DNA of 64,000 nucleotides from a virus. The notes below the pieces were generated by a model that saw nothing but the letters and a program-made list of their open reading frames with translations, did not search any database and was not told the DNA's origin. The stretch is from positions 19,698 through 83,697 of IMG/VR virus record IMGVR_UViG_3300020446_001892; one strand, written 5' to 3'. The translations under genes and the position numbers were made by a program. This document shows positions 19,312 to 60,391 of this stretch, in pieces (within the stretch, counting starts at the first letter, position 1; each line of letters opens with the position of its first letter).

Positions 19312-19783
19312 CTATGTGTGATATCTTTTGCCATGTAAAGGGTGTATAGATAGCACTATTGGCACCATGCTCTGCACATTCTGCTGACTCGCACCATACT
19401 CTGCCACCTGTGTCATTCTTAACAAGTTCATTAGCAAAGTTCCAAGCATGATAAGCAAAACGCTCTGCACCTACACCATCAAGTTGTACAATCTGTGCAA
19501 GTCCTTTTGTCTCAAGCAATAGTAATTCGTCTTTCATTGGATCATTTTTATCAATCACAGTTTTGTGATCAAAAGTATCTTCTAGCCATTGCTTCAAAGG
19601 TTTCAATCCACCAAAGTCCTGTACCCAGTTCCTATGATCTAAATCACTAGAACCAAACGTAAACTTAAATTGTAAACTGTATCCATGTAAAAATCTACAG
19701 TGTGAATGATCTGCGTGTGGTTGACGGAACACCGCTGAAAGTCCGATGTTGTGTCCGTATGTTTTTGTACTGTAATAAGCCAT
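19304..19783 (-). CDS. queD: 6-pyruvoyl-tetrahydropterin/6-carboxytetrahydropterin synthase-like (QueD-like)
   Basis: This 159-residue protein belongs to the PTPS/QueD family (7-deazaguanine or pterin synthesis). It has the catalytic Cys and zinc His region HSHCRFLHGYS (Cys29, His33), then DLDHRNWVQDFGGLK and LEDTFDHKTVID, all family hallmarks. Position 35 is Tyr where classical QueD has the third zinc His (HGH), a variant seen in an alphaproteobacterial branch. Phage QueD homologues usually serve queuosine or modified-G DNA pathways, but no other such gene is in the window. An early-type promoter lies upstream. Confidence 0.82.
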   Translation of the reverse strand: MAYYSTKTYGHNIGLSAVFRQPHADHSHCRFLHGYSLQFKFTFGSSDLDHRNWVQDFGGLKPLKQWLEDTFDHKTVIDKNDPMKDELLLLETKGLAQIVQLDGVGAERFAYHAWNFANELVKNDTGGRVWCESAECAEHGANSAIYTPFTWQKISHIDG

Positions 19784-25994: not shown

Positions 25995-26069
25995 TGGCAT
26001 AGGTGGAAGGAATCGAACCCTCTCTTTCAGGTTTGGAATCTGACGTGCAACCATTGACACTTCACCTAC
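25995..26069 (-). tRNA. tRNA-Trp (CCA)
   Basis: Acceptor GTAGGTG/CACCTAT (first pair G-U), anticodon loop TTCCAAA (anticodon CCA), T-arm GAGGG-TTCGATT-CCTTC, discriminator G as in bacterial tRNA-Trp, encoded CCA. The anticodon stem has one A-C mismatch. The 5' end directly follows the U-run of the hairpin at 26076-26104. Confidence 0.9.
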
Positions 26070-50360: not shown

Positions 50361-51413
50361 TCAATTTTTATTAAATTGATTGAATACATTATTGACTTGG
50401 TTATTTACACGTACAAATGTGGTACATTTAGCCATATCCTTAAGCCTTTTTGCACCAATATAAGTACAAGCACTTCTAACGCCGCCTAAAATTTCAGTTA
50501 CAGTATCTTGGACAGGTCCTCTATATGGCAGAGTGACTACTTTACCTTCTGCACCACGATAACCGTCTTTTCTACGTCCGTGTCTAGCCATTGCTTCATC
50601 TGAACTCATACCATAGAATGTAACTTTTCCTTCGATTATTTCACCTTCAGACTCGTCATGTCCTGCTAACATTCCACCTAGCATAACAAAATGTGCTCCG
50701 GCACCAAATGCCTTTGCAACATCTCCTGGATACACACAACCACCATCTGCAATTACATGTCCGCCAATACCATTTGCGGCATCGGCACATTCTATGACAC
50801 CTGATAATTGTGGCACACCTACACCTGTCTGTAAACGTGTTGTACAGACTGATCCTGGACCAATACCAACTTTCACTATGTCTGCACCCCGAATGATTAA
50901 TTCTTCTGTCATTTCTGCTGTAACAACATTTCCTGCTATAATCGTTTTATCTGGATAAGTTTCTCTAAGCCTTTCGATGAAGTCTCCAAAATTTTCATGG
51001 TATGCATTTGCAACATCAACACAAATAAATTTAATGTCTGGATATGATTCCAATACTTGTACCATTGTGTTATAGTCCGCGGCTTCTTTATCCCAAATAT
51101 AACCTGTGCCTGTGCAAACACTTATATACTTCAATTTAATACCGTTGCCTACTGCTTCTTTCCAATCTTCTACAGTGTTATGCTTACCTATTACGGTTAG
51201 CATTTTATGATTTTGTAATTCTTTAGCCATTGAGAAAGTACCAACACCATCCATGTTACTTGCAAGAATAGGTATTCCGGTCCACTCTTGTCCACTGTTA
51301 TGGAATTTGAATGTTCTAAGTAAATCTACATCTCTGCGACTTTCTAGTTTACTTCTTTTAGGCTTGAACAATACATCACTGTAGTCTAACTTTATGTCAT
51401 TCTCAATTCTCAT
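50361..51413 (-). CDS. guaC: GMP reductase (GuaC)
   Basis: A 350-residue TIM-barrel enzyme. It matches GMP reductase rather than IMP dehydrogenase: [50 protein letters not shown] (catalytic Cys190), [19 protein letters not shown] and [10 protein letters not shown]. No CBS domains. It turns GMP into IMP with NADPH, letting guanine nucleotides be used for adenine nucleotides. In an AT-rich phage, this could help fit the nucleotide pool to the genome (inference). Confidence 0.9.
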
Positions 51414-57934: not shown

Positions 57935-58177
57935 TTATTCCCCTTCTATATCAACTTCCTTCGAAATTCCCTCCGTCGGATCCTTCATCGTCGACTCGTC
58001 TTTCATCTCTGTGTCGTTTTTTTTTGAAAATAAATCTTCAAAACTTAAGGCAGTTACAAAGATGGTTGCGGCTGCCAACATTGGCATTGTGTAGACCATT
58101 TTTTCTGTTATTATTGCAACAGTATAAGTTGGCAATAAAACAGCGCCTGCTTTTATTGTGGCCAACTTCCAATTCAT
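57935..58177 (-). CDS. Small membrane protein with acidic tail (80 residues)
   Basis: Two close hydrophobic stretches (IKAGAVLLPTYTVAIITEKM, YTMPMLAAATIFVTALSF) followed by an acidic cytoplasmic tail (KKNDTEMKDESTMKDPTEG). It lies in a run of three small membrane genes that overlap or abut one another. Function unknown; such sets sometimes include holins. Confidence 0.55.
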   Translation of the reverse strand: MNWKLATIKAGAVLLPTYTVAIITEKMVYTMPMLAAATIFVTALSFEDLFSKKNDTEMKDESTMKDPTEGISKEVDIEGE

Positions 58178-58374
58178 TAGTCACCAAACATTGCTATAAG
58201 CTCTGGTCCAAAAGCACTTGCCGCCCAACCTAAAGCACAAATTGTAACTACTCCTAATACAAGCCATTTCATTTTAAAATCATCAACTTCCATTTTCAGT
58301 GCCACTAATTCGTTTCCAAGTATCCTTACAGCAATTTCTAATTTACCTTTATCGTCAGTCTTGTATTCTGCCAT
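58177..58374 (-). CDS. Small single-span membrane protein (65 residues)
   Basis: A short helix (KLEIAVRILGNELVALKMEV) precedes a membrane span (WLVLGVVTICALGWAASAF). The cytosolic helix may pair with a partner. Shares a base with the next gene's start and overlaps the DUF6356-like gene by 20 bases. Function unknown. Confidence 0.55.
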   Translation of the reverse strand: MAEYKTDDKGKLEIAVRILGNELVALKMEVDDFKMKWLVLGVVTICALGWAASAFGPELIAMFGD

Positions 58375-58555
58375 ATAAAATTTCCTTTATTGTGTTAGTT
58401 GCAGTTTTAGTGAAAAACCGTGGAGCAAATGCATGAATGACGAGGGCAGGCACTAAAAGTTGTAATTTGACTGCTACCTTTAGTGCTTTAATACAATGTT
58501 GAAATCCTGTTTCACCGACTTCCTCTAAATGTAATTTACATTTTTTACTAAGCAT
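58355..58555 (-). CDS. DUF6356-like small protein (66 residues)
   Basis: Reads KCKLHLEEVGETGFQHCIKA and VIHAFAPRFFTKTATNTIKE, the pattern H..E.GE(T/S)..H......L...liHa..P..F..Ta of DUF6356 in marine bacteria and phages. A central hydrophobic part suggests membrane contact. Function unknown. It begins at the stop of the basic mini-protein (TAATG). Confidence 0.65.
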   Translation of the reverse strand: MLSKKCKLHLEEVGETGFQHCIKALKVAVKLQLLVPALVIHAFAPRFFTKTATNTIKEILYGRIQD

Positions 58556-58794: not shown

Positions 58795-59202
58795 TTAGAA
58801 TGTAAATGAAACACCTACTTCTATTTCTCCACGGTTATTGTCTCCGTTAAAATCGTAGGTTGTTTCTGCATATGCTTTAGAACCTTCATTCAAAGCATAA
58901 TCTAAACCTAATTCTAGCACTGGATAATTTCCATCGTCTAGTAAATTTACTACAGCAAAATTATCTCCTGAGCTGTGATTAGTTTCGTATATTGTAATTG
59001 GCGTTTCGGCCCATAATGATAATGGCCCTTCTGCTGGTGTAAAACGTATTTCTGGTTCAATAGTAATATGATTTGTTTCAGCATCAACTTTGTGAAATGC
59101 TTTCATTTCAGTGTTAAGTGTAAGTCCTGATACCGGTAAGTCGGCAGCATAGACAGTATTTGCGGCAAACAGAGTTGCCAGTGCGATTAAAGTTTTACGC
59201 AT
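58795..59202 (-). CDS. Small beta-barrel-like outer membrane protein
   Basis: A 135-residue protein with signal peptide (MRKTLIALATLFAANTVYAA). The mature part alternates polar and hydrophobic residues in strands (LTLNTEMKAFHKVDAE, HITIEPEIRFTPAEG, YPVLELGLDYALNEG, KAYAETTYDFNGD) and ends GEIEVGVSFTF, with the C-terminal Phe typical of outer membrane barrels. It could form a small 8-strand barrel. Own terminator, so expressed as a single gene. It may mask or modify the host surface; unproven. Confidence 0.68.
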   Translation of the reverse strand: MRKTLIALATLFAANTVYAADLPVSGLTLNTEMKAFHKVDAETNHITIEPEIRFTPAEGPLSLWAETPITIYETNHSSGDNFAVVNLLDDGNYPVLELGLDYALNEGSKAYAETTYDFNGDNNRGEIEVGVSFTF

Positions 59203-59298
59203 AATTATTCCTTTATATTTTTCTTAATCTATGTTTGGCGGGGTGATCCTTGATGTCACATTGTACTTATCTAAAATAATAAAAATACTCCCGATATT

Positions 59299-59330
59299 GA
59301 AAGAGAGTGTTGCAATAATACAACACTCTC
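59299..59330 (-). terminator. Putative terminator after the tmRNA coding piece
   Basis: GAGAGTGTTG, 8-nt loop, CAACACTCTC (10 perfect pairs), followed on the minus strand by TTTC. The U-run is short, but the place fits the end of the tmRNA unit. Confidence 0.6.
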
Positions 59331-59334
59331 TATG

Positions 59335-59502
59335 ATTATTCTGTTGCTAGGTAATCAACCCCGGAAAGCCTAATTAGGCCGCCATTGCCATTTCTGGCGC
59401 ATAATTGTCATTTGCAATTATAAAGTTTCTTCGCGTTAACCGAGCTTAGATCCGGATAACTCCACTCATCTATTAACTACCAGTCGATCCTAGTTCGGCC
59501 CC
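59335..59502 (-). ncRNA. ssrA: tmRNA, coding (tag) piece of a permuted two-piece tmRNA
   Basis: The 5' end GGGGCCGAACTAGGATCGAC (59502 downward) is the canonical tmRNA start with its D-loop. The tag frame, from the resume codon at 59415, encodes ANDNYAPEMAMAA and a TAA at 59374-59376, with the small hydrophobic end that ClpXP recognises. There is no usable T-arm/CCA downstream. The matching acceptor strand is instead upstream at 59839-59845, giving GGGGCCG/CGGCTCC with the G3-U70 pair for alanine. The 3' boundary is estimated. Confidence 0.85.
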
Positions 59503-59604
59503 ATCATAAACACACCAATAGTACTTAACAAAATATTCTTTCCATCGATCTCCATATACCTTAATATATGCTTCTCTTATGAAATCAAATTCTGCTTTAC
59601 TCAC
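59473..59604 (-). CDS. Possible 43-residue ORF overlapping the tmRNA 5' end
   Basis: A GTG at 59604 with AAGGA six bases upstream opens a frame reading SKAEFDFIREAYIKVYGDRW and KEYFVKYYWCVYDGAELGST, ending in TAA at 59473. It looks protein-like, overlaps the previous ORF's stop, and its last ten codons coincide with the tmRNA 5' end. RNase P cleavage of the tmRNA would cut this message. Confidence 0.35.
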   Translation of the reverse strand: MSKAEFDFIREAYIKVYGDRWKEYFVKYYWCVYDGAELGSTGS

Positions 59605-59815
59605 AAGTTTCCTTACCACTACATTCTGCAGGGAAACAATGACCTTTCATATGATAGTAACTATTCTCATAACTATGATTCCACATTTTCTGATCTATCA
59701 TATATTCACATTGCGGTTTAGACATAGGTTGTTGTAAAGCAATTTGACCAATGTAATGATCATTGCCGTACATGTCTGCACCCCACATTGTAATTACTAA
59801 TATAAATTCCTTCAT
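59597..59815 (-). CDS. 72-residue protein encoded between the two tmRNA pieces
   Basis: Start MKEFILVITMWGADMYGNDH with GGAG six bases upstream. The N-terminus is mildly hydrophobic; the rest has QPMSKPQCEYMIDQKMWNHS and GHCFPAECSGKETCE with four Cys, so it may be an exported disulfide-bonded protein. It begins 20 bases after the CCA of the acceptor piece and so lies in the segment that is cut out of the tmRNA precursor. Function unknown. Confidence 0.6.
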   Translation of the reverse strand: MKEFILVITMWGADMYGNDHYIGQIALQQPMSKPQCEYMIDQKMWNHSYENSYYHMKGHCFPAECSGKETCE

Positions 59816-59834
59816 GCTCTTCTCCGTGTGTTTA

Positions 59835-59895
59835 TGGTGGAGCCGCCGGGTACCGCCCCCGGGTCCTGTATAGCGTTTGAATTGCTTCAACGTTA
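59835..59895 (-). ncRNA. ssrA: tmRNA, acceptor piece of a permuted two-piece tmRNA
   Basis: The minus strand shows T-arm CCGGG-GGCGGTA-CCCGG, acceptor strand CGGCTCC, A and CCA (59835-59837). The GGCGGTA loop and CCGGC(G)..CTCCACCA ending are typical of alphaproteobacterial permuted tmRNA. It pairs with the GGGGCCG at 59496-59502. It lies upstream of the coding piece, as expected for circular permutation. The 5' edge is estimated from the promoter. Confidence 0.82.
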
Positions 59896-59900
59896 CATTG

Positions 59901-59908
59901 TATTTATA
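59901..59908 (-). promoter_or_regulatory. Late-type promoter box TATAAATA
   Basis: Exact TATAAATA overlapping the -10 of the early-type promoter before the tmRNA acceptor piece. Confidence 0.5.
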
Positions 59909-59931
59909 ACACTATATATTATAAATGTCAA
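59903..59931 (-). promoter_or_regulatory. Early-type sigma70 promoter for the tmRNA
   Basis: TTGACA, 17 bp, TATAAA; the expected start near 59893 is just before the acceptor piece. Confidence 0.65.
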
Positions 59932-60122
59932 GACTTTTTATCATAATGTGATTTGATTTTGTCTGCAAATATTCCTATAAGACCAAATATAAAAATAAAA
60001 ATTAACCAGGCGATTGCTATATATGCACCTACTCCCCATTCATAGTCTACATACATCGGTGCAACCACAGCACTGACTATTCCTGCTATGATGCAGATTG
60101 TCCAATAAATTTTTTTAGCCAT
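59928..60122 (-). CDS. Two-span membrane protein (64 residues)
   Basis: Reads KKIYWTICIIAGIVSAVVAP, a short loop (MYVDYEWGVG), then a second span (AYIAIAWLIFIFIFGLIGIF) and a basic tail. Its stop codon lies within the -35 box of the tmRNA promoter. Small two-span phage proteins can be holins; no evidence beyond topology. Confidence 0.58.
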   Translation of the reverse strand: MAKKIYWTICIIAGIVSAVVAPMYVDYEWGVGAYIAIAWLIFIFIFGLIGIFADKIKSHYDKKS

Positions 60123-60145
60123 TTTTAACCTTCTCTATTTTATAG

Positions 60146-60174
60146 AGTGTAACAGGTTTATTTTTGTAAGTCAA
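60146..60174 (-). promoter_or_regulatory. Early-type sigma70 promoter
   Basis: TTGACT, 17 bp, TACACT before the two-span membrane protein gene starting at 60122. Confidence 0.58.
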
Positions 60175-60391
60175 GCTCTTTTTCTTTGTTATACTTCATT
60201 AATAAAGTATTAACTTCATCTGTCTTTACTAACCAACCGTGTTCATTTACAACAAAAACATCGCCAGGTTTATAAAGATAATGTTCTTTTCGGGATCCGT
60301 CTTTGCACACACCCATTACTTCTCCTGGCCAATCTCCTCTAACTGTAAAATTTTCTCCTGCTTGTTCTACTGTGTAATCTACCCACATCAT
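60158..60391 (-). CDS. Small hypothetical protein (77 residues)
   Basis: Reads MMWVDYTVEQAGENFTVRGD, YLYKPGDVFVVNEHGWLVKT and a helical Lys-rich end. The GDVFVV-N-H-GW section looks like a small SH3-like beta barrel. Function unknown. Preceded by AGGAGG and a CTAAATAC box. Confidence 0.55.
   Translation of the reverse strand: MMWVDYTVEQAGENFTVRGDWPGEVMGVCKDGSRKEHYLYKPGDVFVVNEHGWLVKTDEVNTLLMKYNKEKELDLQK

Follow-up and report, generated by a model that had tools for sequence, protein, structure and literature searches.

The stretch studied here, called the window throughout, comprises 64,000 nt of the IMG/VR virus record IMGVR_UViG_3300020446_001892 (positions 19,698 to 83,697 of that record). 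On its minus strand, which carries all features of the locus, we found a gene for a permuted, two-piece transfer-messenger RNA (tmRNA) with an open reading frame (ORF) between its pieces. Two Rfam models matched above their cut-offs, alpha_tmRNA (RF01849) at 59950-59331 (-) with 88.9 bits (cut-off 50, E 9.5e-23) and tmRNA_permuted (RF04321) at 59896-59374 (-) with 88.4 bits (cut-off 47); ARAGORN listed three tRNAs in the window and did not report the tmRNA. The order is permuted: the acceptor piece is followed by an unusually long intervening segment (IVS) of 332 nt and then by the coding piece (Table 1). The acceptor piece ends in CGGCTCCACCA (CGGCTCC-A-CCA, 59845-59835 (-)) with the CCA encoded, the coding piece starts with GGGGCCG at 59502 (-), and the acceptor stem is paired at 7/7 positions, G3-U70 included. 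The tag, ANDNYAPEMAMAA, runs from GCA at 59415 to the stop at 59376-59374 (-), with a resume codon and an Ala-Ala end, and T-arm and T-loop are intact in the Rfam alignment. A first-pass annotation, made from the letters alone, had proposed a permuted two-piece tmRNA in a phage with fully paired acceptor strands including G3-U70, separated by about 330 nt with a ribosome-binding site and a 72-codon ORF. All of this was borne out, with both models over their cut-offs, the pieces where it had placed them, and a GGAG motif preceding an ORF at 59815-59597. What it had named as refuting its reading, no covariance-model match or an acceptor or tag lost in relatives, did not occur: both models matched, and related loci retain acceptor and tag.

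Table 1 Features of the tmRNA locus in the window, in the order of the minus strand
Feature	Position	Strand	Basis
Sigma-70-like promoter TTGACA-17-TATAAA, directly upstream of acceptor piece	59903..59931	-	consensus match
tmRNA acceptor piece (3' tRNA-like part: T-arm, CGGCTCC acceptor strand, CCA)	59835..59896	-	RF04321/RF01849 alignments
5' arm of IVS-end helix, TAAACACAC	59826..59834	-	9/9 pairs with 59515-59507; present in minimum free energy fold
Shine-Dalgarno GGAG of IVS gene	59822..59825	-	sequence
IVS gene 1: 72-aa protein, family A (MKEFILVITMWG...CSGKETCE)	59597..59815	-	homologs, dN/dS
Possible IVS gene 2: 43-codon frame, GTG 59604 overlapping gene 1 stop, running into coding piece	59473..59604	-	sequence
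3' arm of IVS-end helix, GTGTGTTTA, then TGAT at 59506-59503	59507..59515	-	sequence, pairing
tmRNA coding piece: GGGGCCG acceptor strand, GGATCGAC segment, tag ANDNYAPEMAMAA, stop	59374..59502	-	Rfam alignments
Coding-piece 3' remainder as modelled by alpha_tmRNA, end ...CCTAGCAACAGAATAATCATA	59331..59373	-	alpha_tmRNA match
Terminator-like hairpin, 11 pairs, then moderately T-rich tail TTTCAATAT	59302..59331	-	inverted repeat listed on + strand; minus-strand tail from sequence

The tmRNA parts are also conserved between phages. Acceptor pair 5 shows compensatory change (GC 60, CG 11, TA 9) and is paired in 82/82 phage tmRNA representatives, and every related tmRNA locus checked, comprising the long-IVS loci and three with a short IVS (L001, L005 and L008), passed an Rfam tmRNA cut-off. 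As far as can be judged from sequence, the locus belongs to the alpha-type permuted tmRNA family, and its transcript is predicted to be cut into two pieces that work with SmpB. An SmpB gene was not found in the 83.7-kb record, so that the tmRNA would have to use host SmpB.

The gene, the paired arms and the flanking signals

The ORF in the IVS, led by a Shine-Dalgarno (SD) motif, has 72 codons compared to a mean of 16.9 in shuffled IVS, and none of 300 shuffles contained one as long. Relatives of its product, which we refer to as family A, are encoded in 42 IMG/VR loci. Compared to the closest of them (L001, L005, L008 and L003), the ratio of nonsynonymous to synonymous substitution rates (dN/dS) is about 0.05, with synonymous sites near saturation. 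Homologs and purifying selection both indicate that this ORF is a real protein-coding gene. Searches of Pfam and PHROGs gave no match for the family A protein; its AlphaFold model is fair (pLDDT 84), with a beta-beta-alpha-beta order, and no convincing fold match was found for it. Behind this gene lies a second frame, for which we found matches only to the end adjoining and inside the tmRNA coding piece and no full-length homolog among related loci. We therefore do not accept it as a proven gene, homologs being wanting. A precedent for two overlapping genes is given by L403 and L406, with a 388-nt IVS each, in which a short protein ending in YEDLCK is followed by a GTG-started protein of another family, D (AAGTGAAAATA overlap).

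The two ends of the IVS form a perfect 9-bp complement, which prolongs the acceptor stem of the tmRNA. In an unconstrained fold of the precursor, acceptor and IVS stems both form (z = -5.2). Pairing of the IVS ends is common to the phage loci: on average, 7.98 of 9 positions pair for a phage's own arms, compared to 5.67 for arms swapped between phages, and TGAT makes up the final four IVS bases in 93 distinct viral IVS. In one family of IVS genes (E), the SD is located within the helix itself. A long IVS may thus be tolerated because the arm helix joins the tmRNA pieces whatever the loop contains.

The promoter in Table 1 is omitted by a scan that demands T at the last -10 position. Elements similarly placed were found before many unrelated phage tmRNAs (score of at least 10/12 in 52/81 representatives), and the mean best score was 9.75 at phage tmRNAs versus 8.15 in shuffled sequence. 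Apart from the hairpin, no terminator-like site is listed within 59200-60200. IVS gene 1 starts 20 nt past CCA, so that a promoter of its own would hardly fit except within the tRNA-like piece. Considering promoter, terminator and this lack of room, a single transcript for the ORF and the two tmRNA pieces is the simplest reading. One precursor for message and tmRNA halves had already been put forward in the first-pass annotation; the anatomy supports it well, with promoter, paired arms and terminator, which that annotation had not mentioned, and the transcript itself is what we infer.

Occurrence in phages and bacteria

We compared the locus with its relatives. For most of the 42 family A loci a tmRNA was not seen nearby, and in about 10 (L001, L002, L004, L005, L007-L012) the gene directly follows a permuted tmRNA; complete copies of this tmRNA have an IVS of about 120 nt. 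By this comparison, the family A gene lies beside the tmRNA in the L001-type loci and inside it in the window. It was found in the IVS of three divergent lineages, represented by the window, L069/L182 and L220. Families A, B and C also occur as free-standing phage genes. The window itself encodes overlapping free-standing relatives of families B and C (DUF6356) at 58177-58374 and 58355-58555 (-), about 1 kb downstream of the tmRNA, and L148 and L155 also carry this pair side by side. In a syntenic locus, L289, homologs of both genes flanking the window tmRNA (69% and 54% identity) enclose a tmRNA with an IVS of only about 50 nt, which has paired arms and contains no gene. The tmRNA site thus occurs with and without cargo. 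A scan with peptide patterns of the downstream 135-aa gene returned zero relatives, though L289, seen otherwise, has one.

The case had initially been treated as singular, yet the window is one of a recurrent class. Scanning for the acceptor-piece pattern without selection for IVS length yielded 76 distinct viral IVS; 10 of them are at least 160 nt long, and in 10/10 of these an SD-led ORF takes up 60% or more of the IVS. Scans for long IVS enlarged the set to 186 distinct IVS, 115 of them at least 160 nt long, and a stricter SD-ORF test was passed by 74 of these 115. For 34 representatives with IVS no shorter than 160 nt, the sense strand had an SD-led ORF covering 60% or more in 20 cases and the antisense strand in 1 (Fisher p 5e-7). 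The ORFs fit closely between the tmRNA pieces, with a median start codon 20 nt after CCA and a median stop 10 nt before the coding piece. The genes of the 74 IVS fall in 21 protein families, 11 of which are represented in at least two distinct IVS; family C is DUF6356 according to Pfam, and family G resembles DUF2061, just below the Pfam cut-off. Values of dN/dS were 0.17 (B), 0.08 (C), 0.08 (D), 0.19 (E), 0.05 (F) and 0.21 (G), and by this measure the IVS genes are under purifying selection where it is measurable. Overall, the spacer of permuted tmRNA appears to serve as a reusable slot for phage proteins in marine phages. Separately, the 370-nt IVS of L407 encodes a 118-aa protein with a YHATYRPLLSSI...VYLALDPDVAESYAE pattern recalling ADP-ribosyltransferase-like proteins, a reading that we did not adopt, as Pfam gives it no backing.

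In bacteria, the spacer is short, as had been assumed for permuted tmRNA in general. Across 190 genomes from one alphaproteobacterial class, most permuted tmRNA matches are about 190-270 nt in span, with more than 300 nt in 3 among the roughly 150 matches listed; these three contain repeats or structured sequence and no SD-led ORFs. Sampled alphaproteobacterial IVS measure about 30 nt (mostly 10-48 nt in 30 retrieved). Searching 84,980 genomes for long IVS returned 11 hits, among them two phage-type contigs in metagenome-assembled genomes (MAGs). The other nine showed neither an SD-led ORF nor arm pairing, and at least one of them (L242) is a pattern artefact whose actual tmRNA is short. Based on the genome scans and the sampled IVS, we rejected the idea that long IVS are common in Alphaproteobacteria. 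The two MAG contigs, each with a phage-type tmRNA and an IVS gene, are assigned to a 'Euryarchaeota' MAG (L240/L287, PBDU01000009.1) and a 'Rickettsiales' MAG (L244/L288, PALK01000009.1), the latter contig being equal in length to IMG/VR contig 2823577039_000001; phage contigs of this sort may account for some of the archaeal tmRNAs reported.

Permuted tmRNA as such is known in marine phages: according to the available text of a previous study, 53/133 distinct phage tmRNA structures are two-piece (PMC9004378). The window locus agrees with bacterial permuted tmRNA (RF01849/RF04321) in order, acceptor stem with G3-U70, CCA, tag and scores over both cut-offs. It differs in its IVS, which has 332 nt and encodes a conserved protein, whereas the sampled alphaproteobacterial ones have about 30 nt and are non-coding. 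Closer to it is the marine phage Melnitz, described in the same text as carrying a two-piece ssrA and infecting OM43, a non-alphaproteobacterium (PMC9004378). Its tmRNA is likewise alpha-type and permuted, with an upstream promoter and a 142-nt IVS in which an SD-led ORF reads into the coding piece (MZ577097; L164 2052-2168, MFKWLSKTRLVVITRDYFRERNRKADAKIPKYLSG...). In contrast to the window gene, this short ORF belongs to another family, with homologs in L075 and L127, and a glutamine riboswitch follows the tmRNA. It is unannotated: GenBank marks the tmRNA only, and the available text of the paper describes no IVS gene (PMC9004378). As tblastn of IVS proteins against named phages gave no match, Melnitz, found through its tmRNA, is the sole cultured example. 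In all, a manA RNA motif or glutamine riboswitch directly after a phage tmRNA was seen at L230 662-870, L164 2354-2402 (Melnitz) and L075 778-828.

Two further arrangements have been described in what is accessible of the tmRNA database paper. In intron-form tmRNA, endonuclease genes lie within group I introns (PMC11915505); as in the window, a protein gene is placed within the tmRNA gene and has to be removed to make the RNA. In the window, however, a permuted form carries the gene in its IVS, and the IVS proteins match no endonuclease family. A homing endonuclease gene in a group I intron of the T-loop was rejected, given the intact T-loop and an ORF without Pfam match. A tRNA or a repeat element has been reported in the IVS of permuted tmRNA genes (PMC11915505), which are likewise enlarged; these are isolated cases and not protein genes, and the accessible text mentions no protein gene in an IVS (PMC11915505). 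A protein gene in a tmRNA IVS was not described in the literature searched, to which most subscription papers do not belong.

The record encodes families of a baseplate wedge, a ribonucleotide reductase small subunit, a DNA ligase and a glycosyltransferase, which suggests a myovirus-like phage. An alphaproteobacterial host, which the first-pass annotation had deduced from the tmRNA, does not follow, as Melnitz combines an alpha-type tmRNA with an OM43 host (PMC9004378, available text) and the tmRNA type hence does not fix the host. The window also has two metabolic-type genes, one for an FAD-dependent oxidoreductase (DAO, PF01266; 60432-61595 (-)) close to the tmRNA, the other for an IMPDH/GMP reductase domain protein (50361-51413 (-)). 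Rfam additionally revealed a fourth tRNA (25998-26069 (-), 45.4 bits) beside tRNA-Cys, which ARAGORN had missed.

Competing explanations and a model for expression

Taken together, the locus is very probably a functional-looking alpha-type permuted tmRNA of a myovirus-like phage, whose IVS has been turned into a protein-coding slot. Some observations weigh against this. The window IVS is unusual in that 94 nt are left after the gene 1 stop, where gene 2 is unsupported. Among the 115 long viral IVS, 41 do not pass the strict SD-ORF test, although many of them encode homologs whose SD is weaker, from families B, D, E and others (such as L185, L187 and L199 from D, L170 and L201 from B). Moreover, promoter and terminator in the window are no more than consensus matches, and only a short T tail follows the hairpin.

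The gene might instead have landed in the spacer by chance and been tolerated there, with no meaning beyond compactness. This would agree with the free-standing members of families A, B and C and with the position of the family A gene just downstream of a complete tmRNA in the L001-type relatives. A chance insertion would, however, often disrupt the arms or be antisense, whereas 21 families recur with a near-exact fit between the arms, the 9-bp pairing is kept, and the same strand is used in 20 cases versus 1. We consider this explanation improbable. A second alternative, that the insertion broke the tmRNA gene and only the protein is selected, draws on the lower score of the window compared to the short-IVS relative L001 (88.9 versus 113.7 bits) and on a tag end, MAMAA, unlike the usual YALAA-type end. 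Against it stand the intact seven acceptor pairs, G3-U70, CCA, T-arm, resume codon, tag and stop, the acceptor covariation across 82 representatives, and IVS arms that are kept paired with no obvious use to a protein gene alone, which together make such decay very unlikely. Finally, a misassembly or a bacterial tmRNA joined to phage DNA is hardly credible: the window is one metagenomic record of which a near-identical second copy was not seen, but dozens of contigs from independent samples share the layout, with identical copies in some, phage genes flank it in the window (baseplate wedge, ribonucleotide reductase) and elsewhere (single-strand DNA binding protein, DnaB, tape measure, tail lysin), and L289 has the same two genes on either side of its tmRNA.

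If the IVS is indeed a protein-coding slot, a single transcript would start from the promoter at 59931-59903, run through acceptor piece, IVS gene or genes and coding piece, and end near the hairpin at 59331-59302. In this precursor, the IVS ends would pair and prolong the acceptor stem, and the pieces would meet regardless of loop length. The loop would hold the small gene, its ribosome-binding site close behind the 5' arm, and this gene could be translated from the precursor or from the excised IVS. Cleavage by tRNA-processing enzymes is described as freeing the pieces of permuted tmRNA (PMC11915505, accessible text). Here, host RNase P and 3'-end nucleases would cut at the GGGG start and after CCA, which would give the two-piece tmRNA and remove the message. 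Since tmRNA maturation would destroy the message, expression of the IVS protein would be early, brief and tied to the tmRNA promoter. For the family A protein, a role in early host takeover is possible, a guess from its size, the promoter type and the phage setting. Tentatively, and with more doubt than conviction, we suggest that the IVS may act as a self-limiting expression cassette, in which the tmRNA promoter drives early small takeover proteins and maturation by host nucleases removes their message. In that case, tmRNA biogenesis and viral protein synthesis would regulate each other.

The locus draws attention to a set of small phage proteins, probably early ones, which can escape gene callers as well as tmRNA finders. 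It is relevant to the tmRNA loci of MAGs, part of which lie on phage contigs. It also offers a testable system for the competition between RNA maturation and translation. One transcript would do three jobs, as message, as tRNA-like part and as tag message. Overall, the spacer of a permuted non-coding RNA, so far regarded as processing waste, recurrently houses protein genes in marine phages.
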